Shown in pieces: positions 11,833 through 36,299 of a stretch of 40,264 bases of DNA; position 1 is the first letter of the stretch, and each line of letters begins with the position of its first letter. Below the pieces are notes generated by a model. That model made no database searches. It worked only from the letters and a program-made list of their open reading frames with translations, and was not told where the DNA came from. The translations under genes and the position numbers were made by a program. The stretch is from a virus: the IMG/VR virus record IMGVR_UViG_3300025669_000086, positions 1 through 40,264 of that record. The stretch is one strand, 5' to 3'.

Positions 11833-13266
11833 TTACTTCCTGGTGGTTTTGGCGGATAACAGCATCGACTTAATATCGGCTAACTCTTCCCTCCAACCGT
11901 GGTCAGGGTCGGCGTGGGTTTCGATTCGCGAGCCGATCTTGGCGGCAATTCGGTCGTCCATCTCGTTGCGAGTACGAGCGGCCAGCTTCTCGATAAAGAG
12001 CGGATCACCCGTCTTGATCTTGTCAAGGATGTCCTTGCGAATCAACCAGACCAAGACGGCCAACACCACGCCCGCGATGCCGAGACCTTGCCAGCCCACC
12101 TTGTCGGTCAGCTTGGCGGCAATCTTCGCAGTCACAGTGGATTCGAGGCGGGCCTTGACTTTGGCCAGTAAGCCGTCGGGTGCCTCTTCGTCGAGTGCCG
12201 CGTCGACCGTCGCTTTTGCATCGGCCGCGCCCGCCACTGCTTTGGTGGCAGCACCCACGGCGGTACTTGCATCAGCCCCGGCCTTCGCTGTGGTTTGCTC
12301 CAGCATCTTCAGTGCGGCCTGAAGCTCGGGCCATTGCTCGGCGAGTTGCCGGGCTTTGTTGGCTGTTATTTCGAGCGGATCGAATCGGGCCGTGTTAGCG
12401 TCGATCAATTGGAGTTGCTCACCCTGTTGGCTTTCCAGGTTGCCGAGTCGCTCATTCACACCGGAGAGGTCAACAGGCGGCTGTTGCGGCAAGGGCGGTT
12501 GCTCAACGGGCACAACGGGCCGGTTGGCCTCCAGCTTGTTCTTGTCCTTCTTCGCCGCCAAGTCCGCATTCCACGGAAAGACGTAGCGGTTTTCCATGGC
12601 GAACGCACAGATGCGGCCGTTGAAAATGCCCTGCGTGCTCTTGCCATCAGTGGTTGCAAGCACGCCAACTAACTCACCCTGAGCGTTCAGGATCGGTCCG
12701 CCGGAATCGCCCTGTCGGGAGCCTCCGGTAACGGAGAGCACTTCGGCCCTACCATTACTGTTACCACTCCAACTGCGGTAGCCAATCACGGAACCAGAAA
12801 TCTCCGTGTACTGCCCTGTCTTGCCATAACCCGCATGAGTCACCCGGTCACCACGCTTGGCATAGTCAGTCGCCATCGTGGCAATGTCTTCGGTCGGTCG
12901 CGGAGTCAACTTAATAAACGCGAGGTCGTGTTGACAGTTCTTCGCAATCACACTGCCAGCGTAACTTCGACCGCCAGGGAATCGGACCGACAGTCGACCA
13001 GCGCCCACGTCGAGTAGGTGAGCACAAGTCAGCACAACGCCATAATCACGCCCCTTGCAGACCAGGGTGCCGCTGCCAATGCTGGCCGTCCGGCCCACCT
13101 GGTTACTGATCCGGCAAACGAACGGCCGTGCCCGCATTTGCTGCTGTCCATGCCATTGCGGAGCCTGTTGGTTCGGACACACACCGCCGGGGCAAGCGCT
13201 CTCAGCCACCCCCGCCATACACATCGCCAGCAAGCAGCCAGCCACTACCGCTAGTAAGCGTTTCAT
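11833..13266 (-). CDS. secreted, membrane-anchored trypsin-like serine protease
   Basis: A 477-residue protein. Residues 1-23 are a signal peptide (MKRLLAVVAGCLLAMCMAG, cleavage near AES/A), followed by a Cys-Pro-rich start of the mature chain (CPGGVCPNQ). The trypsin-fold domain spans about 45-235 with the triad visible: His in LTCAHLLD, Asp in CQHDLAFIKL, Ser in RQGDSGGPI. A Pro-rich linker (VEQPPLPQQPPVD) leads to a long Ala-rich helical region, then a membrane helix (GLGIAGVVLAVLVWLI, about residue 393) and a charged tail. The start overlaps the stop of the upstream amidase gene (ATGA). A secreted trypsin-like protease is unusual in a phage virion region; it may act on envelope proteins during lysis or entry, or be a host gene acquired with the cassette. 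Confidence 0.85.
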   Translation of the reverse strand: MKRLLAVVAGCLLAMCMAGVAESACPGGVCPNQQAPQWHGQQQMRARPFVCRISNQVGRTASIGSGTLVCKGRDYGVVLTCAHLLDVGAGRLSVRFPGGRSYAGSVIAKNCQHDLAFIKLTPRPTEDIATMATDYAKRGDRVTHAGYGKTGQYTEISGSVIGYRSWSGNSNGRAEVLSVTGGSRQGDSGGPILNAQGELVGVLATTDGKSTQGIFNGRICAFAMENRYVFPWNADLAAKKDKNKLEANRPVVPVEQPPLPQQPPVDLSGVNERLGNLESQQGEQLQLIDANTARFDPLEITANKARQLAEQWPELQAALKMLEQTTAKAGADASTAVGAATKAVAGAADAKATVDAALDEEAPDGLLAKVKARLESTVTAKIAAKLTDKVGWQGLGIAGVVLAVLVWLIRKDILDKIKTGDPLFIEKLAARTRNEMDDRIAAKIGSRIETHADPDHGWREELADIKSMLLSAKTTRK

Positions 13267-18715: not shown

Positions 18716-19000
18716 CTATCCTGCTGAGGCTTCTTTGGGATCGATTGGGGGATGACTCAACGGAATGAATACCAGCTTCTTAATCCATTGATACATCCTC
18801 TGGCGTTTGGTCCAAACACATAATACGTCTTCTCCCTGAGCGCGCAACAGCGGGCGGAGTCTGGCTAAGTGTACATTGACAGTTGTGGGATTGCCTAGCT
18901 CATCCGAAAGGCAAGTCATCAATTCCTCTCGGGTGTGAGGCTCTCCATCTCCAAGCACCTTCAAGAGTCTACGGTGTGTGGGCGTTATTCGTTGGGTCAT
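18716..19000 (-). CDS. small winged-helix DNA-binding protein
   Basis: A 94-residue protein. ITPTHRRLLKVLGDGEPHT then NPTTVNVHLARLRPLLRAQG then VLCVWTKRQRMYQW form the helix-turn-helix plus wing pattern of an OmpR/PhoB-like or similar winged helix. It overlaps the stop of the head morphogenesis gene by 4 nt and precedes the structured non-coding region. It could regulate the late operon, perhaps at that region; this is inference. Confidence 0.7.
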   Translation of the reverse strand: MTQRITPTHRRLLKVLGDGEPHTREELMTCLSDELGNPTTVNVHLARLRPLLRAQGEDVLCVWTKRQRMYQWIKKLVFIPLSHPPIDPKEASAG

Positions 19001-20853
19001 TGCTTGGTTGGCTCCAGTTTAGCGGGTTGGATCTTCGTTACTCTTGGCTTGGGTAGTGTAGGCTTGTCTAGGATACTCTTGGGACGTACCTTGGCTATGC
19101 GTACATCGGCTCCTGCCCAGTTGCTACGTGCCTTCTGTTCAGCTAGAGTGCGCTTGGTTTTCTTAGTGAACCTTCCTGTCTCTGGATCTTTGTAGCGTCG
19201 GCCTTGCCCCTTAATCATTCTTCCTTGGGGGATTTCTTGTCTGATGTTCTTGTCGATAGCTCCTTGAACTTCTTTTTGTGTGCGCTTCTGTTTCTTGGTG
19301 TCTTCTCCCACATTGGCTGGCATAAATGCGCAACGACAGTTACTAACTACAAATCCATCGCTACAATAGAGGCTACTTTCTGTGGTATAATCAAATGCAA
19401 GGCCATAGTAGTTACCTAACTCTACTTTTTCGACAGAGAGCCAGACGAAATGATTATCAGCAGCAACCCAAGAGTCAGAGCCGCCCACGCCGCCCGTAGA
19501 GGGCAAAAGGACAGTACAGCAACCAAGAAGGCCCGGGCGGAAACCCGCCACCGTCTTGGAATTGGGATCGGGCCACAAGAGGAGGTCTTCGCGGAGTTTC
19601 TCGATTCCGCTGGGATTTCTTATGGGCAACAAACCCCTTGTGGGACATATTGCTTGGACTTCACCCTCACAGAATACCCTGTCGCCGTGGAGATCGTGAC
19701 TGGGGGAGGAAATAAGAGAGTCTCGGCAAACAGAAAGAATCGTCTCAAATACGTCTTGGGATGTTGGAATCTGTTTGTTGTAAACGCCCGGGGTAAAACC
19801 TTGATCTTGCCGAAGGTCATAGAGTACCTTATCGCCTTCTCTGATTTCCTTGGCGCGAACCATACCCCGAGCGGTCATCATTGGGTGATTAGGGCCGATG
19901 GTCGTCCTATGTTCCCCTCCCCCGGATGCGTACAGTATGACACAAGGACCGCTGTAGTAAGCCCGAACCGCCTCAAGGCACTCACCGTAAGATACAAAGG
20001 TTGAAGGACCAAAAACAGCGTTAGGATGTCTGGGAATTATCCCTCTTGCTTCCTTGAGAGTAAGAACTACACCATCCATATCAGCACATAGGGGACAAGT
20101 TCTGTCATCGTATGCAGCACTCCATTCCACCATTACGCCTACCTGAGCAACCCCCATCTTGTCCATCGCGTCTAGTTGCCCCTCAGCGTGCGCGCGTATA
20201 ATCTCCGTGCGTGCAATAGTCAACGCGCGTGTCTTCCCCATATCTAATGTCTTAACCATGCCTCTTGCAATCGTGCGAGGATTTGCTCCTTGGGCTAACC
20301 CATCTGCAAGTGTTCTGGTAATCCTACTCGCCATGGATGCGTCTACACCCTTGAGGTCAGTATAGACGCGGCCGGTTATCTGTTTGATTTTGTCGATGGC
20401 TATAGGTTGTGCAAACGAGGAGCGTAGAAACTCGTCCTTAGAGCCAGCGTAGAAATCTCGTAAGCTGTCTTGATCGTGCAGGGATGCCTTCCGCGTATCA
20501 TCGAAAGCACGACCAGCCCCCTTCTTGTACCCATCCTCCACAAACTTTTTGTAGTAAGCTGTTTCCAATTGAGCAGCACTACTAGCAATAATCTCTTGTT
20601 GGACTTGAGTAGCAAACCACTGTTGGAACTGTCGTACCTTCGCGGAGTCCGTAGAGAATCGCCAACGAACGTTTACCGTCAATTCGTTGTCTACTCTGTT
20701 GGAAGGCTTCAAACCGAAAGCATCATCCACAAACACTAGTTGGATTATTGCACTCTTAACTCGGTTGAATCTCGCGGATATGTTTTCACAAGCCCTACGT
20801 CTGAGGGTTGCTGATCTAGTTGGATCGGCTCTCAACGGATGTATTGCTGCCAT
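18997..20853 (-). CDS. Mu gpF-like head morphogenesis protein, interrupted by an intein
   Basis: A 618-residue precursor. Residues 1-278 and 506-618 are the exteins. They join as RHPN/CRCAF, restoring the SPP1 gp7/Mu gpF signature RTCPLCADMDG...HPNCRC at the heart of the domain, which includes a Cys-rich loop. TLADGLAQGANPRTIARGM and ARTEIIRAHAEGQ are conserved helices of that family. The protein is a minor capsid component needed for head assembly. The Lys/Arg-rich C-terminal 100 residues suggest interaction with DNA. It lies between the portal/HTH genes and the winged-helix gene. Splicing is required to make the intact signature. Confidence 0.85.
   Translation of the reverse strand: MAAIHPLRADPTRSATLRRRACENISARFNRVKSAIIQLVFVDDAFGLKPSNRVDNELTVNVRWRFSTDSAKVRQFQQWFATQVQQEIIASSAAQLETAYYKKFVEDGYKKGAGRAFDDTRKASLHDQDSLRDFYAGSKDEFLRSSFAQPIAIDKIKQITGRVYTDLKGVDASMASRITRTLADGLAQGANPRTIARGMVKTLDMGKTRALTIARTEIIRAHAEGQLDAMDKMGVAQVGVMVEWSAAYDDRTCPLCADMDGVVLTLKEARGIIPRHPNAVFGPSTFVSYGECLEAVRAYYSGPCVILYASGGGEHRTTIGPNHPMMTARGMVRAKEIREGDKVLYDLRQDQGFTPGVYNKQIPTSQDVFETILSVCRDSLISSPSHDLHGDRVFCEGEVQAICPTRGLLPIRNPSGIEKLREDLLLWPDPNSKTVAGFRPGLLGCCTVLLPSTGGVGGSDSWVAADNHFVWLSVEKVELGNYYGLAFDYTTESSLYCSDGFVVSNCRCAFMPANVGEDTKKQKRTQKEVQGAIDKNIRQEIPQGRMIKGQGRRYKDPETGRFTKKTKRTLAEQKARSNWAGADVRIAKVRPKSILDKPTLPKPRVTKIQPAKLEPTKQ
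19383..19391 (+). promoter_or_regulatory. possible extended -10 promoter for the antisense nuclease gene
   Basis: The plus strand reads TGGTATAAT, an extended -10 form. No good -35 is present. The bases also encode the conserved DYTT of the intein on the other strand, so the match may be incidental. Confidence 0.25.
19450..20004 (+). CDS. antisense Vsr/DUF559-like endonuclease within the intein (candidate)
   Basis: A 184-residue plus-strand frame lying wholly inside the intein-coding DNA, antisense to intein residues 285-468 and codon over codon. A basic N terminus (AARRGQKDSTATKKARAETR) is followed by a pattern expected of Vsr/DUF559-type PD-(D/E)xK nucleases: GPQEEVFAEFLDSAGISYG, TYCLDFTLTEYPVAVEIVTG with Asp and Glu, then RKNRLKYVLGCWNLFVVNA. 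Such nucleases occur as homing endonucleases beside inteins. The start codon ATG has only a weak Shine-Dalgarno. An extended -10 (TGGTATAAT) lies 59 nt upstream. It could be a chance antisense frame, but the motif order argues for real coding. Confidence 0.5.
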   Translation: MIISSNPRVRAAHAARRGQKDSTATKKARAETRHRLGIGIGPQEEVFAEFLDSAGISYGQQTPCGTYCLDFTLTEYPVAVEIVTGGGNKRVSANRKNRLKYVLGCWNLFVVNARGKTLILPKVIEYLIAFSDFLGANHTPSGHHWVIRADGRPMFPSPGCVQYDTRTAVVSPNRLKALTVRYKG

Positions 20854-20858
20854 TGGAG

Positions 20859-21215
20859 TTACCTGATTGGTTTCTTAGGTCCACGGAATATTTTGCATGT
20901 AGGAATGGATGGGGGCACTGTTCCATTAGGCCCTGCCATTTGTCTACTCTGTCGGAGGCTCAATGTCCTCAACGCATCAGCCCTTCGCTGTATCTCTTGA
21001 GGACAAGGCATGTAGCTTCCAGTATCCTCTTGGGATTCACGTGCATGAGCTGCCTCTATGAGGCTCCTGACATGCACTCCAGCATCCACTAGGATATTGC
21101 GAATAAAAGTCCCCGAACACCCGAACCTTCTACTCAGCTTGTACAAGGATTCCCCAGACTTGTACTTCTCAATAATCTCTAGTTTGTCCTTCTCTGTTAC
21201 GTCTTTGCAACTCAT
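20859..21215 (-). CDS. small helix-turn-helix protein
   Basis: A 118-residue protein. KLEIIEKYKSGESLYKLSRR followed by FGCSGTFIRNILVDAGVHVR is a resolvase/Hin-like helix-turn-helix in the first 50 residues. The rest is polar and unrecognised. It lies between portal and head morphogenesis genes with 2-5 nt gaps, so it is co-translated with structural genes. A regulatory or packaging-related role is possible. Confidence 0.65.
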   Translation of the reverse strand: MSCKDVTEKDKLEIIEKYKSGESLYKLSRRFGCSGTFIRNILVDAGVHVRSLIEAAHARESQEDTGSYMPCPQEIQRRADALRTLSLRQSRQMAGPNGTVPPSIPTCKIFRGPKKPIR

Positions 21216-26980: not shown

Positions 26981-29251
26981 TCATTCTTTCTCCCTGTACA
27001 ATCCCGATAGCTTTGGGATACTCAGCAGATTTCCATTGATCCTCGGGATTGCTTGCTCCCGAAGATACTCCTCCGACAAGTCTATTCCAATAGACCTTCT
27101 CCCCTTCTCAATAGCAACACAACAAGCTGTCCCACTACCAACGAACGGATCAAGCACTACACAAGGGACAGACTCTTCAACCCCACAATCGCAAGTAGCT
27201 TCCCAACCGATTGTCTTATCCTTCCTCAGCCTCCGCAACCTCATACCGTCTCCCCCTCGTATATCCTCTTCAACCGAACCATACTTGGTTTCTCTTCCTG
27301 GTCTCGTATCCTCCCGAGTAGTTTCCACTACTCTCTTCCTAGGAGCACCACACTCAGGACAACATCCCATCTCACTAGTACCTGCAAGAATGCAAGGCTC
27401 AACTAGCTTAGGAGGGAACGTAGCAAAGTGAGCACCACCATAAGCATAAGAAGGGATAGACCATACTGATCGTTTGTTGCGTGTTGGGTATGTTTTACCC
27501 TCTGGTATTGTCGTAAAGTCGTGATACCCCTGGTCGTTGGGTATCACATTTGCGGCGTGAATAGCTTTTCTGTTTCTGACCGTTCTGCCTTCTAAAGATT
27601 CCCTATCTATAGACTTTTCCTTGATTGCTTCTGCATCATAGAAGTATCCTCCGCGCTTGGCTAACAAGAACAGATACTCATGGGATTTTGTACATCGATT
27701 CCTAACTGGCTCTGGCATTGGATTAGGCTTGCTGTTGTGTGTGACTACACCACTGGCAAGAGTGAAAAGATGGGAGTCGCCAGCCACTCCAACATCATAC
27801 ATGAACTTTCCAGGTCCAGCATGGGAAGCGCAAATGTCTGTTATCTCACAACGATCCTTCTCGTTGAGATGACCACTTCTGGTCTTTCGTATCTCTCCAC
27901 GAAACCCTGGGAATTCTCTTCCATCAAACACACCGATACAAGGCTTGAGTGTCAACACCCATCCCAGTCTTGCACAAGCTACGCGAATGTCCCTCGCCAA
28001 ACCATGATTTCTCGTGAACCCCAATCTAATCCTTCGGTTTTCTTTATCAGTACTTCCATCCCCATGCAGATAGCCTTCCATCAAGGATTGTAAGAACTGG
28101 TTACTGTACTTCCACACACACGGATTGAAGTGTTTGTCTTTTGATGTTTTACCAGCAATCAACTCTCTGATGATAGATGTGACCACTTTGCCATGGATGC
28201 TTATTGTTTGGTTGTTGCCTTTCATGCGCAGCGTGGCGTGTCCTCCGTATGATCTAACAATTTTGAACACCCTATTCCATCGTGCATATTCCTTCCTATG
28301 CCCAGACAACCCAAACTTATTGCTTTGGTGGTTCTCAGCACCCCACCCTTCTGCCAAGTACAATCCAGCAAGCCATGCGGCATCAACGTCAATATGAATC
28401 GGGGATTTCAAGTCATCTGGTTCTGGTAGAGTGGATTGTGTGAGGCAATCCCCAATAGATAAACCCTCGGCCTTCACTAGCCCCTGATTCTTGGTTGGGA
28501 ACTTGTGTTTAGCAGAACAGCTTATTGTTTCCCCACTCCTCAAAGTTAGCTTGACCTCTCGCCCATCCCGGGGAGTTCTGCTTACACCAAGAAGCTGGAC
28601 CCACTCCTTACCATCCCACATTTTCACAGTGCCTGGGTCCAGCCTTGCGAGGTCTTTAATCATCATAGGCATATCCCCCTTCTGAGACCTAACATAAACC
28701 CAAGTGGCACCACTCAAACACCAAATGATGTCCTGCCTTAGTACCCAACCATCAGCCTGCAATGCAAGAGCAACCCGCCAAGGAATACCGACGAGGTTTC
28801 CTGCCTTAGTCCCTTTTGTATTTGCCTTCCGAGAGTTCTCAGTTCGCAGACGAGAACTTTTATTTTGCCCTGGGTATTTTCTATCCACATCATTCCGGCC
28901 TGGAGAACCTCCCCCATACGTATCGCCGAGATTAAGCCAAACCGTTCCATCGTTCCTCAACACCCTCCTAACTTCAGAGAAGATTTCAACCATCCGATCA
29001 ATATATTCTTCAGGTGTCTTTTCTGATCCTAATTCCTTTGTCTTGTCTGTTCCGTAATCACGTAAGCCCCAATAGGGAGGAGAGGTCATAACCATGTGAA
29101 CAGATTGTGCTGGTAGCTTACGCAATACGTCCAACACATTGCCTTGATAGAGCTTGACTGCCTTCCTATCCTTCGTGGTCCAATAAGGTTTTGCTCTCGC
29201 AACTCTCCGAAGCTTCCTTGGTACTTCCCTTTTCCGCCTAGACATAATCAA
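26981..29251 (-). CDS. DNA methyltransferase (TSPPY type), interrupted by a LAGLIDADG intein
   Basis: A 756-residue precursor. The exteins (1-177 and 507-756) form an N4-cytosine/N6-adenine-type methyltransferase: catalytic TSPPYWGLRDYG (residues 56-67), the NxxDIIW/SKPNPMPEPV segment rejoined at the intein, and the SAM-binding motif VVLDPFVGSGTACC (about 700). A zinc-finger-like insert with CCPECGAPRKR and CDCGV lies between. Spliced length is 427 residues, normal for phage methylases. It is the last gene of the replication operon and overlaps the ATPase gene by 14 nt. Methylation could protect the phage genome; target sequence unknown. Confidence 0.9.
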   Translation of the reverse strand: MIMSRRKREVPRKLRRVARAKPYWTTKDRKAVKLYQGNVLDVLRKLPAQSVHMVMTSPPYWGLRDYGTDKTKELGSEKTPEEYIDRMVEIFSEVRRVLRNDGTVWLNLGDTYGGGSPGRNDVDRKYPGQNKSSRLRTENSRKANTKGTKAGNLVGIPWRVALALQADGWVLRQDIIWCLSGATWVYVRSQKGDMPMMIKDLARLDPGTVKMWDGKEWVQLLGVSRTPRDGREVKLTLRSGETISCSAKHKFPTKNQGLVKAEGLSIGDCLTQSTLPEPDDLKSPIHIDVDAAWLAGLYLAEGWGAENHQSNKFGLSGHRKEYARWNRVFKIVRSYGGHATLRMKGNNQTISIHGKVVTSIIRELIAGKTSKDKHFNPCVWKYSNQFLQSLMEGYLHGDGSTDKENRRIRLGFTRNHGLARDIRVACARLGWVLTLKPCIGVFDGREFPGFRGEIRKTRSGHLNEKDRCEITDICASHAGPGKFMYDVGVAGDSHLFTLASGVVTHNSKPNPMPEPVRNRCTKSHEYLFLLAKRGGYFYDAEAIKEKSIDRESLEGRTVRNRKAIHAANVIPNDQGYHDFTTIPEGKTYPTRNKRSVWSIPSYAYGGAHFATFPPKLVEPCILAGTSEMGCCPECGAPRKRVVETTREDTRPGRETKYGSVEEDIRGGDGMRLRRLRKDKTIGWEATCDCGVEESVPCVVLDPFVGSGTACCVAIEKGRRSIGIDLSEEYLREQAIPRINGNLLSIPKLSGLYREKE
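27734..28720 (-). mobile_element. LAGLIDADG intein in methyltransferase 2
   Basis: Residues 178-506 (329 aa). Starts with Cys1 (CLSGATWVYVRS), block-B-like SCSAKHKFPTKNQG, two LAGLIDADG helices AWLAGLYLAEGWG (about 292) and FLQSLMEGYLHGDGS (about 386), and ends MYDVGVAGDSHLFTLASGVVTHN followed by Ser+1, shown here only by its key residues H505 and N506. Both splicing and homing functions look intact. Inserted between IIW and SKPNP of the methylase. Confidence 0.9.
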
Positions 29252-30575: not shown

Positions 30576-32294
30576 TTATCTCCTATCTTGTGTTGCTAGC
30601 CTAATTCGATTCTCTGCCGTCCGAAAAGCCTCTTCATCATTATCGCAGCCGATGAATTTAATCCCTAGCCTCCGACAAACTACACCGGTACTCCCAGAGC
30701 CCATGAAAGGATCAAAGACAACTCCACCCTTTGGTGGCGTTACCAAACGCACGAGGTATTCCATGAGAGCCAGCGGCTTCACTGTTGGATGCTTGTTCTC
30801 AACATCTCCCCCACAAGTCCTCTCACTTTTATTTGCCTTGGCACAATAGAACGCCCTACTTGGTTCTGAGACCTTCACCCCACGATCCATATTGTGATTT
30901 GTGAAACTCAACATGGCAACTACGGCAGAGCCATCTAAAATCATGGGGCTTGTCGTAGTCGTCGTGATGTTTATCTGCTTTGATTTCCCCACAGACTTCG
31001 CAAGGTTGCCGTTTAACTTTGCCGTGCCTATGACCCAAGACCCTCGCAAGTACCCGCTTTCGGTACTCAGGATCAGTGCAATAACGTTTTCGCAAAGCTG
31101 CCTTAACAGCTTCGGCGTTACGTTCATAGAAAGTCCCTGCAAACCGCTTAACTGCCTGGCCCCTTGGCTGGCCTCTGTTACTACACGACTTAGAACAGAA
31201 ACGGCGACTTGATTTGGCAGGGACAAATTGTTGTCCACAGTATTCGCAAGTTTTATCTTCCACGGGAGTCTCCTTTTTGAATTGGATTGTACCGTGTCTA
31301 TTATAGTCTTTGCACGCAAAAGAAACAAGGCTAAGTCTTCTTCTGTGTACGGACATTGTTTGAAAAACCGAGCGGCAGAGCCGGAGTCGCCGCCAAACGG
31401 CTTGGGGGGTTCCTTCCTTCCGCCATACGTGCCATAAACTGGGCTATTGCTTTTTCGCTCTGGAGCGTGGTGGGGCTCAAGACAACCGCTCTTCGTCTTA
31501 GGAAACAGCCCCACCACTTCATCGCTTCCGTCGTGGATTAGGTTGGCGGGGAAGCGGCCTTCTGGATTACCCGGTACATTCGGTCCTTGAATATAATTCC
31601 CATCTGAACCATAAATAGTTACAGCATGGTGTCCGCCCCCATGTGGGGTGCCAGGGATTCGACACCCATCAACATTGATTCCGGCTACACCGTGCTTCAC
31701 AGCATTATTTGCAAACGTGCCGTCGAGAGGTTTCATGGCAAGGATCACTGGCTCATAGCTCGGCTTCAGAGCAGTACCCCAACCGTCCCAGAGTTTGGCG
31801 GCGTCGGTTGCGGGGGCGGTGATAGCCGAACAGTCAATCGCACTGTTTTTGCCATGCCCTCCTGCAAACGAACCACCACGAATATCCTGGACTGGGGTTG
31901 CTGCCCGTCCTGTCTTTCGCCCCACCACTTCACGCTCTGCACCTGCTGCCTTGTCGAGGGATTTGCTGATGTTGTGTGACTTGGGGAAGCCCGATCCGTA
32001 CACCCACATGATACAATCGCGTATCTCCCAACCAGCATCCTCGATAGCACAAGCCAAACGGTGATAAGTTCTCGTGCCGCCGAAGGCTAGAAGCATTGCT
32101 CCAGGTTTACAGACTCTGAGGAACGTCTGCCAGAATTGTACTCCTGGAACTCCATGGTCCCATTCCTTACCCATAAACTTTAGTCCATAGGGTGGATCGG
32201 TCACAATTGCGCTAACCGTGTTGCTGCGAAGTCTGCGGGCTGCCTTTCGGCAATCAAGAGGGTACAGGGTAGGGGAATATGTTGGCTTAGGCAT
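30576..32294 (-). CDS. DNA methyltransferase (DPPY type) containing an HNH gene
   Basis: A 572-codon frame. The methyltransferase shows IVTDPPYGLKFMGKEW (residues about 30) and the SAM motif VVFDPFMGSGSTGVV (about 525), plus a long phage-type variable region. Near residue 325 the expected continuation FFKQCPYTEEDLALFL is followed by about 145 residues unlike the family, before YCAKANKSER and HPTVKPLALMEYL resume. That segment coincides with an HNH endonuclease gene in another frame. The methylase frame has no stop across it, so an in-frame fusion could be made, but it may be inactive. Overlaps primase by 8 nt. Confidence 0.85.
   Translation of the reverse strand: MPKPTYSPTLYPLDCRKAARRLRSNTVSAIVTDPPYGLKFMGKEWDHGVPGVQFWQTFLRVCKPGAMLLAFGGTRTYHRLACAIEDAGWEIRDCIMWVYGSGFPKSHNISKSLDKAAGAEREVVGRKTGRAATPVQDIRGGSFAGGHGKNSAIDCSAITAPATDAAKLWDGWGTALKPSYEPVILAMKPLDGTFANNAVKHGVAGINVDGCRIPGTPHGGGHHAVTIYGSDGNYIQGPNVPGNPEGRFPANLIHDGSDEVVGLFPKTKSGCLEPHHAPERKSNSPVYGTYGGRKEPPKPFGGDSGSAARFFKQCPYTEEDLALFLLRAKTIIDTVQSNSKRRLPWKIKLANTVDNNLSLPNQVAVSVLSRVVTEASQGARQLSGLQGLSMNVTPKLLRQLCENVIALILSTESGYLRGSWVIGTAKLNGNLAKSVGKSKQINITTTTTSPMILDGSAVVAMLSFTNHNMDRGVKVSEPSRAFYCAKANKSERTCGGDVENKHPTVKPLALMEYLVRLVTPPKGGVVFDPFMGSGSTGVVCRRLGIKFIGCDNDEEAFRTAENRIRLATQDRR
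30856..31263 (-). CDS. HNH homing endonuclease inside methyltransferase 1
   Basis: A 135-residue protein starting at GTG 31263, with AAAAAGGAG ending 6 nt upstream; an ATG at 31356 lies in the methylase part and has no such site. A zinc-ribbon N terminus (TCEYCGQQFVPAKSSRRFCS, then KSCSNRG) precedes the HNH core CEVCGEIKADKHHDDYDKP and WLCRSCHVEFHK. A sigma70-like promoter lies just upstream. Flanking sequences TTTCTTTTGCGTGCAAAG and TTCTATTGTGCCAAG (31.3 and 30.85 kb) resemble each other, a possible duplicated target. It is in a different frame from the methylase. Confidence 0.85.
   Translation of the reverse strand: MEDKTCEYCGQQFVPAKSSRRFCSKSCSNRGQPRGQAVKRFAGTFYERNAEAVKAALRKRYCTDPEYRKRVLARVLGHRHGKVKRQPCEVCGEIKADKHHDDYDKPHDFRWLCRSCHVEFHKSQYGSWGEGLRTK
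31300..31328 (-). promoter_or_regulatory. sigma70-like promoter for the HNH gene
   Basis: The minus strand has TTGTTT, a 17-nt spacer and TATAAT (31305-31300). It lies inside the methylase reading frame, 36 nt before the GTG start, which would let the HNH gene be expressed independently. Confidence 0.55.
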
Positions 32295-33818: not shown

Positions 33819-34387
33819 CAGTATTTTCTCACCTCCCAAAAAACTGTGTTGTAGCCAGGCAGTGTTCCCCACTCTACGCTGTAGGTAGAAAACTCAACCA
33901 CATGGCCTTCATAATTGTCCAACAAGTACATCAACCAATCATAGCTTCTTTCACACAAGAATTTTCTCAGGAGGGTGATTGCTATTATACCCCCTGCCAC
34001 GTGCGTCTGGTCTTTAAGCGCTTCCCTCATAGGCTTAGCAACAGTCGTATAGGTTAGCTCATAGCTCCAGACTCCTCTTGAAACCTCTCCTTGAAAGATT
34101 GTCTTTTCGCTTGGAGCCATTGCACTGATATACAACGTGCTAGGATCAACCCCGTTTGCTGTAATCTTCCCCCAAGTAGTCACTACTTCCCGAGCCAGCA
34201 GATTGTACCAAGTAGGCCCGCCCGCCACTCTGTTTCGGATATGAAACAAAGCCCTTGGATTAGTTCCTGGAATGCGTTGGTCCAGTAGCCAACGATCAAG
34301 AGCCTTCCAAGTGGGAGAGTGATTTCCAAATTCCCCCTTGGCATACCTCTTGACAAAGTTTCTCTTAGTAAGTACAGGCTTAACCAT
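33818..34387 (-). CDS. conserved protein of unknown function in nucleotide operon
   Basis: A 189-residue protein starting MVKPVLTKRNFVKRYAKGEF. Features: FHIRNRVAGGPTWYNLLARE (about residue 50), a Tyr-rich segment (LTYTTVAKPMREAL) and the C-terminal VEWGTLPGYNTVFWEVRKY. I do not recognise the family although the FHIRNRVAGGPTWY string looks familiar from phages. It overlaps both the thymidylate synthase (8 nt) and MazG (1 nt), so a function in nucleotide metabolism or DNA modification is plausible. Confidence 0.6.
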   Translation of the reverse strand: MVKPVLTKRNFVKRYAKGEFGNHSPTWKALDRWLLDQRIPGTNPRALFHIRNRVAGGPTWYNLLAREVVTTWGKITANGVDPSTLYISAMAPSEKTIFQGEVSRGVWSYELTYTTVAKPMREALKDQTHVAGGIIAITLLRKFLCERSYDWLMYLLDNYEGHVVEFSTYSVEWGTLPGYNTVFWEVRKY

Positions 34388-36299
34388 CAGATTGATTTCC
34401 TGAAGGGGCTACTTTGCTTTTGTGTTCCCAAGCCTCTTTTCTTTTTTCTATCCAAGCTGTCCCTGCCTCCTTCCAATCGGGCGCATGTACCCGACTCATT
34501 AAAGTCAAAGCGTTATTGTCTCCATAGTACCTCCGTTGCTTGTGCGCTCTGTATGCGGCACACATAGGTTGGGCTACGTTGCGGAGAAATGGCTCAGTAA
34601 ACTCTTGGTCTATCCCACGAGAAACAAAGCGAATAACTTCCATGTCAAATACGTCTGGGTTGTCTACCAGTGGTATCAGCTCCCATGGCTTTTGATAATC
34701 CATCGAGAAATTGCTAGCCCACTTTTTAGGCTCCCACTTGTCTTTGTAGACGTGCAAGTTGTTTGTCAGGTGGTGATAGGTGCCAACCTCAACACCAATA
34801 CGCTTTGCCATGTACTCCAAGAGAAACGAATAGTGTACGACGTTTGCTCCCAACATTCCCCAAACCAAGTCGTTGCTACGATTGCAAACAGTCATGTCTA
34901 GATAGCTTTTCCAAACTGCCATGTCTCTTTCTTGATGATGAACAGAGAAATAGACGTTGGTATTGCAATTATGCACAAGCACCCCATTGCTTAATACTGC
35001 ATTATGCCTTCCAGGAACCTCAAAATCATACACAGCCAACGTTCCGGCCCTCTCTACGCTCACTACACGATGATTCCCTTTTGATGCTTGATACTCTTGG
35101 ATCATCTCCCATTGTTCTTCAGTACGAAACGCCTTACGTTGCTGTAGTGCTTTTCTAAGTTCGGGTGTTAATCCGGCATAGTGTCTCTTCAAGCTAGCGG
35201 AGTGTTTTTTGCCTCTTGCATCTTTTTGGGATTCTGTCATTTTACAATGGGGATTATTCGCACCAAACTTACCTATAGCATTGTGTTGGCTTGCTTCCAT
35301 TTGTTGTAAATTATCAAATTGGTTATTCAAGATATTACCATCTCTGTGGTGTATTGCAAATCCTCTGTGTATTGGCTCAACAAGACCAAAATACTCTCTG
35401 TGCTCCCTTTTGAGATTAACTCCTGAAGTGTTTCTGTAAAGATTCCGTTTGAACTGTAAATATCCCTTTGGGCAATACCTACTTGCCGCAGTTTCTGGAA
35501 GAGCTGCAACTACATGATCGCCAACAACTAAATTACCCAAAGTGCATTCTTGCACCGATAATCCCACACAACGGCTTCCTTCAAACCTTCTTGTTTTGCG
35601 GTAGAACAAATGGTCATTTGTAGCTAAAACTGAAGAGTTATCATCAAACTTGATTCGGTAGACTTCTTTTTTACCAGACTTCCAAGCGTTAGTCATCCAA
35701 GCCAATCGCTGATCTCCTGTGCCAGTATCCACAGTGTATACTGGATACTTAAATGTATTTTGAGTCTGGAATTTCTTAGCCAACCATTGGATAGTTTGGT
35801 CTCCCTCAGGAGACCTAAACTTTGTATTGCCTGCCAAACAAGGCAAATCTTTTGAATCTGTCTCCAAGTCTTTTGTTGGAGACCAGATAGACAATACCTG
35901 ACGACGGCAATCGGGGTCAGCTTCCAATGCGTCTGCAATCCTCAGTAGTTGATCCATCCCAAAGGCAACCCGCCAACGATGGCCATAAGCCCCATGGAAC
36001 TTCTCCCCATCGTCAGAGTAGTTGCCAATGTTGCTGTTGTAATACGCCAACGGCTGTACTTTGTTTGATCCTGAGAGCATCCACAGAGACTCAAACAAAT
36101 GAAAGAATGGGTTGGCGTCTCTTTCTGAATTGAACAGCACTCTCTGGAGAGGATGAGTGTAGGAGACCAATACTGGTTCAGTGACTTTGAGTACGGGGCC
36201 ATTACGGCTAGGCCGTTCAACGGTTGGAATAGACTTTAGAGCTATCCCGTTGACTAGTCGATCAAAAGCATCGTTGACATTACGAAAATGGAAGTGCAT
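34380..36299 (-). CDS. thyA: thymidylate synthase-family protein, interrupted by an HNH intein
   Basis: A 639-residue precursor. Exteins 1-153 and 445-639 make a 348-residue thymidylate synthase homologue: ESLWMLSGSNKV (about 71), HGAYGHRWRVAFG (about 102), DCRRQVLSIWSPTKD (about 130), the catalytic Cys in DLP/CNT at the junction, and DLVWGMLGANVVHYSFL containing the Asn that favours dUMP over dCMP. It could make dTMP or, as in hydroxymethyluracil phages, act as a dUMP hydroxymethylase. The catalytic cysteine is residue 445, the intein's +1 residue, so the enzyme cannot work before splicing. Confidence 0.9.
   Translation of the reverse strand: MHFHFRNVNDAFDRLVNGIALKSIPTVERPSRNGPVLKVTEPVLVSYTHPLQRVLFNSERDANPFFHLFESLWMLSGSNKVQPLAYYNSNIGNYSDDGEKFHGAYGHRWRVAFGMDQLLRIADALEADPDCRRQVLSIWSPTKDLETDSKDLPCLAGNTKFRSPEGDQTIQWLAKKFQTQNTFKYPVYTVDTGTGDQRLAWMTNAWKSGKKEVYRIKFDDNSSVLATNDHLFYRKTRRFEGSRCVGLSVQECTLGNLVVGDHVVAALPETAASRYCPKGYLQFKRNLYRNTSGVNLKREHREYFGLVEPIHRGFAIHHRDGNILNNQFDNLQQMEASQHNAIGKFGANNPHCKMTESQKDARGKKHSASLKRHYAGLTPELRKALQQRKAFRTEEQWEMIQEYQASKGNHRVVSVERAGTLAVYDFEVPGRHNAVLSNGVLVHNCNTNVYFSVHHQERDMAVWKSYLDMTVCNRSNDLVWGMLGANVVHYSFLLEYMAKRIGVEVGTYHHLTNNLHVYKDKWEPKKWASNFSMDYQKPWELIPLVDNPDVFDMEVIRFVSRGIDQEFTEPFLRNVAQPMCAAYRAHKQRRYYGDNNALTLMSRVHAPDWKEAGTAWIEKRKEAWEHKSKVAPSGNQSDG
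34968..35840 (-). mobile_element. HNH-containing intein in thymidylate synthase
   Basis: Residues 154-444 (291 aa). Begins with Cys1 (CLAGNTKFRSPEGD); block-B-like VLATNDHLFYRKTR near 225; an HNH domain with NRNTSG...GFAIHHRDGNILNNQFDNLQ (key residues HHRDG) near 317; and ends VYDFEVPGRHNAVLSNGVLVHN, quoted only in part, with His443-Asn444 before Cys+1. Splicing and endonuclease motifs appear intact. Confidence 0.9.

Follow-up and report, generated by a model that had tools for sequence, protein, structure and literature searches.

A phage head-protein intein with a probable Vsr-like homing endonuclease gene on the opposite strand, codon over codon

Can one segment of phage DNA encode an intein on one strand and, codon over codon on the other, the nuclease that mobilizes it? 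The question is posed by the window, as we call the whole stretch of DNA analyzed here (40,264 nucleotides, positions 1 to 40,264 of IMG/VR virus record IMGVR_UViG_3300025669_000086). As listed in Table 1, its minus strand encodes a head morphogenesis precursor that is interrupted by an intein at an HPN/CRC motif (borders HPN/AVFG...VVSN/CRC). When the two exteins were joined, residues 9 to 291 of the 391-residue query aligned with the intein-less MuF protein of Halorubrum phage Hardycor1 across the junction (7e-31). A close intein-less relative of the same phage was not found. Three other IMG/VR contigs (L001, L002, and L003) encode head proteins with 100% amino acid identity, which indicates that the window phage, or very close kin, recurs across metagenomes.

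Table 1. Features of the interrupted head gene and of the putative nuclease gene antisense to its intein (positions are those of the window).
Feature	Position	Strand	Basis
MuF-type head morphogenesis (minor capsid) precursor, 618 aa, intein-interrupted	18997..20853	-	Phage_Mu_F PF04233 2.7e-12; phrog_758 head morphogenesis 1.7e-35
N-extein, residues 1-278, C-terminal end IIPRHPN	20020..20853	-	Match to intein-less MuF of Halorubrum phage Hardycor1, 7e-31
Intein, residues 279-505: Ala1, block B GPNHPMMT, C-terminal VVSN, Cys+1	19339..20019	-	PF14890 Intein_splicing 5.7e-4; REQ3 intein 41.7% identity, 4e-44
Intein C-terminal block F/G region GLAFDYTTESSLYCSDGFVVSN, outside the nuclease overlap in the window	19339..19404	-	Sense codon position 3 fastest
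C-extein, residues 506-618, CRCAF at start, plus stop	18997..19338	-	Sequence
Putative antisense nuclease gene, short form without HTH, ATG start, 184 aa plus stop	19450..20004	+	Codon over codon with intein residues 285-468
Basic N-terminal region, nuclease residues 1-36, two predicted helices	19450..19557	+	Aligns with AAHxARRG segment after HTH domains of longer homologues
Predicted Vsr-like nuclease core, nuclease residues 42-150	19573..19899	+	Alignments; AlphaFold model; Foldseek to 1vsr and 3r3p
Core residues: conserved Y67, D70, E81, R98; E44/E45 on first helix of core	19657-19659 (D70); 19690-19692 (E81)	+	Alignments
Dual-read segment: nuclease strand HHWVIRA (+) over intein block B PNHPMM (-)	19876..19896	both	Sequence; ES2 clade constrains both frames
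Nuclease C-terminal tail, residues 156-184, predicted disordered, over intein block A region (sense frame dominant)	19915..20001	+	Model; divergence

The Pfam profile Intein_splicing (PF14890) matched the window intein (5.7e-4) and its relatives (2.5e-6 to 1.6e-5) under its curated cut-off, and an intein embedded in a terminase gene above it (5.3e-9). Residue 1 is Ala in the window and in Rhodococcus phage REQ3, and Cys in Cronobacter phage ES2 and most relatives; inteins that begin with Ala are known. Block B of the window intein has Gly where Thr is usual, and this residue together with Ala1 makes splicing uncertain. The C-terminal Asn and Cys+1 are present in the window (VVSN/C) and, as N/C, in nearly all relatives.

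The sequence-only reading had described a 184-codon antisense frame inside this intein (residues 279 to 505) in exact codon-over-codon register, and we found both the frame and the register as claimed. None of the Leu and Ser codons in residues 285 to 468 is TTA, CTA, or TCA, the triplets that read as stops on the other strand, although these codons number 31 (17 Leu and 14 Ser) and not about 34, as first counted. The frame is bounded, as had also been reported, by Ser284 (TCA) and by a downstream Leu codon (TTA), which is Leu479. Given the amino acid sequence, the chance of a stop-free antisense frame is low (P of ~0.002). Since two other window genes contain equally long open runs (194 codons) in the same antisense register, we dropped open-frame length as evidence for coding. 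The frame exceeds chance because it is conserved as a protein. As a control, a 190-aa antisense frame over the major capsid gene found no match, though its sense product has homologues at 5e-28. In a promoter scan the promoter-like site of the window gene was at chance level, a terminator scan likewise gave chance-level results, and a search of Rfam found no intron.

Conservation of the antisense product was followed in public collections, which were searched with single proteins as queries. In translated searches, the product matched the antisense strand of minor-head-protein genes in many phages, among them REQ3 (1e-29), Vibrio phage H2 (4e-13), ES2 (3e-11), and Gordonia phage Malisha (8e-11). 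For H2 and ES2 the antisense match beat the sense intein match (2e-6 and 2e-8, respectively). Queries with two relatives of the antisense product reached 127 and 112 phage records, and Angelicage, SE1, and 1N2-2 carry the antisense gene though the window query missed them. Other searches for relatives of the window product returned only identical contigs. No copy was found at the DNA level in E. coli genomes, and among about 300 genomes surveyed from a single host family there was one true embedded copy, the remaining hits being weak DUF559-type matches.

Most relatives have a long form of the gene (230 to 310 codons) that begins with ATG or GTG after sequences such as TGGAGGTTGTAAAC. In these long forms the Shine-Dalgarno sequence and start codon are formed by the complement of the codons for block F of the intein (HVYNLQ or HVYDLE). 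Their N terminus consists of one or two HTH domains (HTH_38, 7e-10; HTH_7, 3.5e-9), followed by the nuclease domain. The protein end (G)HYxVIRG is the complement of intein block B (TPNHP), and the codons for VAVEI, a motif of the nuclease, complement those for a DxHGD motif in the same inteins. The window (184 aa) and REQ3 (181 aa) have short forms without HTH domains, which start with the AAHAARRG segment, located after the HTH domains in the long forms; their ribosome-binding sites are weak, whereas those of the long-form relatives are strong. Directly upstream of the window head gene lies a 118-aa HTH protein (20859-21215, minus strand; HTH_58, 5e-6). It resembles the HTH modules of the long-form nucleases that are absent from the window nuclease, and may be either a relic or a DNA-binding partner encoded separately.

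The sequence-only reading had assigned the product to a Vsr/DUF559-type nuclease and named a profile search as one way to check it. On its own, the window product gave no significant Pfam, PHROG, or PDB sequence match; the assignment held up through family members, whose nuclease domains gave weak, repeated Pfam matches to REase_MTES_1575 (3.8e-5), Vsr (0.003), and DUF559 (0.007), and through agreement of the family profile with the predicted fold. The profile, built from 13 antisense proteins with the window product first, matched I-Bth0305I in the PDB (3r3p, titled "Mobile intron protein"; 3.6e-7) and, at 0.0018, the endonuclease-like 3hrl. An AlphaFold model of the window product made from the same 13-protein alignment had a mean pLDDT of 76.9, with values of >90 in several core blocks, and its best PDB matches by Foldseek were 1vsr (probability of 1.00), 3r3p (0.98), and 1cw0 (0.92). 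A model of one long form (L025; pLDDT of 84.9) matched 1cw0, 3r3p, and 1vsr, all with a probability of 1.00. Because the Foldseek E values are modest (best, 2e-3), we base the fold call on profile and structure agreeing with each other. All sequences in the antisense-protein alignment have D70, E81, Y67, and R98. Of the EDxHD signature, E44, D70, and E81 are conserved, and its H and D are not evident after E81 in the window product. On these models, the window antisense product is predicted to have a Vsr-like alpha/beta nuclease fold.

We surveyed 33 intein-embedded loci from about 17 lineages and at least five host-gene families, and the register was identical in all of them. In every locus the sense frame is open through the nuclease, with no TTA, CTA, or TCA codon in the matched nuclease stretch. 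The sequence-only reading had named stops in the antisense frame of most homologues as one of two findings that would count against it; such stops occurred in 0 of the 33 loci, most of which had been retrieved with the antisense protein, a route biased to open frames. Seven loci were fetched by sense search alone, and all seven carry the antisense gene. The interrupted host proteins include Phage_Mu_F, Phage_min_cap2 (in REQ3, 3.2e-49), VG15 (1.3e-30), dCMP deaminase (5.6e-11 and 3.9e-9), and the terminase large subunit (3.5e-4, just below its cut-off). The interruption of several host-gene families argues that the arrangement belongs to the intein and not to a single head gene. The "putative head morphogenesis protein" of Virus Rctr197k is a dCMP deaminase with this type of intein (PF00383, 5.6e-11; L015:619-2025 and L041:2312-3655).

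A nuclease homologue also occurs outside inteins. In Acinetobacter phages IME285 and BUCT629 it is free-standing and annotated as a gene of its own (L013:455-1348 and L029:2135-3028), convergent (tail to tail) with an intein-less MuF head gene. The frame opposite this copy is broken by stops, and 12 of its 39 Leu and Ser codons are of the "forbidden" kind. In the tree, the free-standing homologue nests in a supported group of embedded copies (97/91), which makes escape from an intein at least as likely as an ancestral free-standing state.

Divergence at the three codon positions separates the two frames. In the ES2 clade (eight loci), the N-extein had the usual pattern at positions 1/2/3 (.235/.196/.530). 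Over the antisense gene the values were.232/.044/.109, with sense position 1, the wobble position of the antisense frame, changing fastest; in the intein parts without overlap the usual pattern was back (.065/.016/.321 and.025/.021/.230). Divergence at sense 4-fold sites was.548 in the extein versus.089 in the overlap, and conservation was 87% for the antisense protein versus 75% for the sense protein. A sliding profile of this clade showed the antisense frame dominant in the middle of the element and both frames constrained over block B. The REQ3 clade repeated the pattern, with changes at 4 of 50 sense 4-fold sites in the overlap versus 69 of 141 in the exteins (p=7e-8, Fisher). Between the window and REQ3, 1 of 16 such sites had changed in residues 354 to 468 versus 47 of 57 outside the nuclease gene (p=3e-8, Fisher), and 17 of 34 antisense 4-fold sites had changed; in residues 285 to 353 (blocks A and B) the sense frame was dominant. 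The inverted wobble and the frozen sense 4-fold sites over the nuclease show that the antisense frame is under selection, in answer to the synonymous-site test that the sequence-only reading had proposed. Purifying selection acts on both frames: on the antisense frame in the middle, on the sense frame at the flanks, and on both over block B. For the window itself, strong selection on the two frames together is apparent only at the ends, and the mid-intein frame behaves mostly as a read-through linker.

The best explanation for these observations, and in our judgment a very probable one, is a mobile intein whose homing endonuclease is encoded by the opposite strand, codon over codon. Judged by sequence, the antisense frame represents a conserved, selected protein of predicted Vsr fold in many phages, and the sense frame represents a conserved intein. 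Beyond this, we infer that the nuclease is expressed, cleaves the empty site, and drives homing, and that the intein splices. According to our model, the late head operon would yield the MuF precursor, from which the intein would splice itself out, and the plus strand would be transcribed separately to give a Vsr/I-Bth0305I-like nuclease. This nuclease would most likely bind and cut the HPNC-coding region of intein-less head genes, and repair would copy the intein and the nuclease gene in together. By interrupting the target site, the intein would shield its own allele. These homing steps are modeled on the behavior of known homing endonucleases (PMC3943268). The middle of the sense frame would need only freedom from stops, a demand that accounts for the avoidance of TTA, CTA, and TCA by the nuclease, and bases would be shared at the ends, with block B over the last nuclease strand and, in the long forms, block F over the ribosome-binding site and start. 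For the family as a whole, it is likely that about 17 phage lineages and at least five host-gene families share an undescribed mobile-intein architecture, with splicing domain and homing endonuclease on opposite strands, codon over codon, the block F codons giving the nuclease its ribosome-binding site and start and the block B codons its last beta strand.

Two alternatives would each do away with one of the frames. If the antisense frame were a chance by-product of codon usage, its conservation would mirror that of the intein codons. The length of the frame alone is indeed not unusual, and the register turns conserved codons into conserved antisense residues. We nevertheless consider this reading extremely improbable: the wobble is inverted and sense 4-fold sites are frozen, the antisense search reaches phages that the sense search misses, often with better scores, and the matched control over the capsid gene gives no match. 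HTH and nuclease domains, the PDB match to I-Bth0305I, and a free-standing homologue without any intein frame also speak against chance. Conversely, the sense strand might not be a working intein, the head gene being merely interrupted by a nuclease and the sense frame read through or dead. Ala1, the Gly in block B, the weak Pfam score, and the freely evolving sense middle would fit such a state. Yet at the splicing ends the sense frame is conserved and its codon position 3 changes fastest, the junction of C-terminal Asn and Cys+1 is conserved, and the sense frame is open in 33 of 33 loci, across head, terminase, and deaminase genes, so that we hold a dead intein to be very unlikely.

Other alternatives accept both frames and differ on the state or role of the nuclease. 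The family may be real and the window copy, perhaps with that of REQ3, a decaying remnant that has lost its DNA-binding domain and start site. Such decay would account for the missing HTH domains and weak ribosome-binding sites of these two copies and for the lack of a promoter signal at the window copy; we think it unlikely, since the 184 codons are stop-free, antisense selection is seen between the window and REQ3 and within the REQ3 clade, and the predicted core fold and the conserved D70 and E81 are intact. The product could instead be a Vsr-fold DNA-binding or repair protein in another role (e.g., regulation or superinfection exclusion of related phages) and not the homing endonuclease of the intein. 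Vsr is a repair enzyme, the fold has non-homing members too, and nuclease activity here is predicted. This role is quite unlikely, however, for a gene that is embedded in an intein in at least five host-gene families, has I-Bth0305I as its best sequence match, and shows the HTH-plus-nuclease layout typical of phage homing endonucleases; the free-standing copy, moreover, adjoins the same target gene. A mobile intein with an opposite-strand homing endonuclease gene is the reading that we retain.

The window holds further mobile-element candidates and one more feature of note, all on the minus strand. Two inteins are conventional, with in-frame nucleases: a LAGLIDADG intein in an N6/N4 DNA methylase gene (26981-29251) and an HNH_3 intein in the thymidylate synthase gene (34380-36299). 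Inside a second DNA methylase gene (30576-32294) lies a 166-aa ORF (30856-31356) in another frame of the same strand, in which zinc-finger-like and HNH-like Cys/His motifs were seen by eye. The methylase frame is open across the whole insertion that holds this ORF. Searches for a phage homologue and for an Rfam intron at the ORF found none, and the ORF may be another dual-coded nuclease insertion, here with both frames on the same strand. A 477-aa protein encoded among the structural genes (11833-13266) contains a trypsin-like peptidase domain (Trypsin_2, 4.6e-18).

In reviews, the nuclease of an intein is described as a domain in the reading frame of the intein (e.g., PMC3943268), and we found no earlier report of the opposite-strand arrangement of intein and nuclease in the openly licensed literature. 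More than 100 phage genomes have been annotated without the arrangement being noticed, and annotators should check inteins on both strands. With its gene antisense, the nuclease would be expressed independently of the late head gene. If our reading is true, these elements are a natural, conserved case of two recognizable protein families on complementary strands. With their many independent homologues, they would let one study in nature how complementary strands can accommodate two proteins under selection, a question that bears on overlapping genes in general and on sense/antisense models of early coding.

Among known systems, I-Bth0305I, the EDxHD homing endonuclease of the recA group I intron in phage 0305phi8-36, resembles the antisense product in its Vsr-like catalytic domain (3.6e-7; Foldseek probability of 0.98 to 1.00). 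It is a phage mobile-element nuclease with extra DNA-binding modules, as most of the homologues would be with their HTH domains; the window and REQ3 forms have no HTH domain. I-Bth0305I, however, is tied to a group I intron and not to an intein, and no sharing of bases with an opposite-strand splicing domain is known for it. The Vsr mismatch endonuclease and the DUF559/MTES_1575 proteins have the same nuclease fold (1vsr, probability of 1.00) and account for the weak Pfam matches of family members, but they are free-standing cellular genes, and Vsr, a repair nickase, has no HTH modules at its N terminus. Conventional bifunctional inteins likewise combine intein and endonuclease in one mobile element at a conserved host-gene motif; their LAGLIDADG or HNH nuclease is an in-frame domain of the intein, whereas that of the window is a separate gene on the other strand. 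Dassa et al. reportedly described in 2009 fractured genes in which a stand-alone Vsr-like endonuclease gene lies between the halves of a split intein. Such genes also associate a Vsr-like endonuclease with inteins in phage genes, but the window intein is not split, and the nuclease gene overlaps it codon over codon. Pairs of proteins encoded codon over codon on sense and antisense strands are familiar from the Rodin-Ohno hypothesis and from bacterial antisense overlapping genes. The present elements share with them the encoding of two proteins on complementary strands of one DNA segment; they differ in that both products belong to recognizable families and that comparative data show which frame is dominant in each region.
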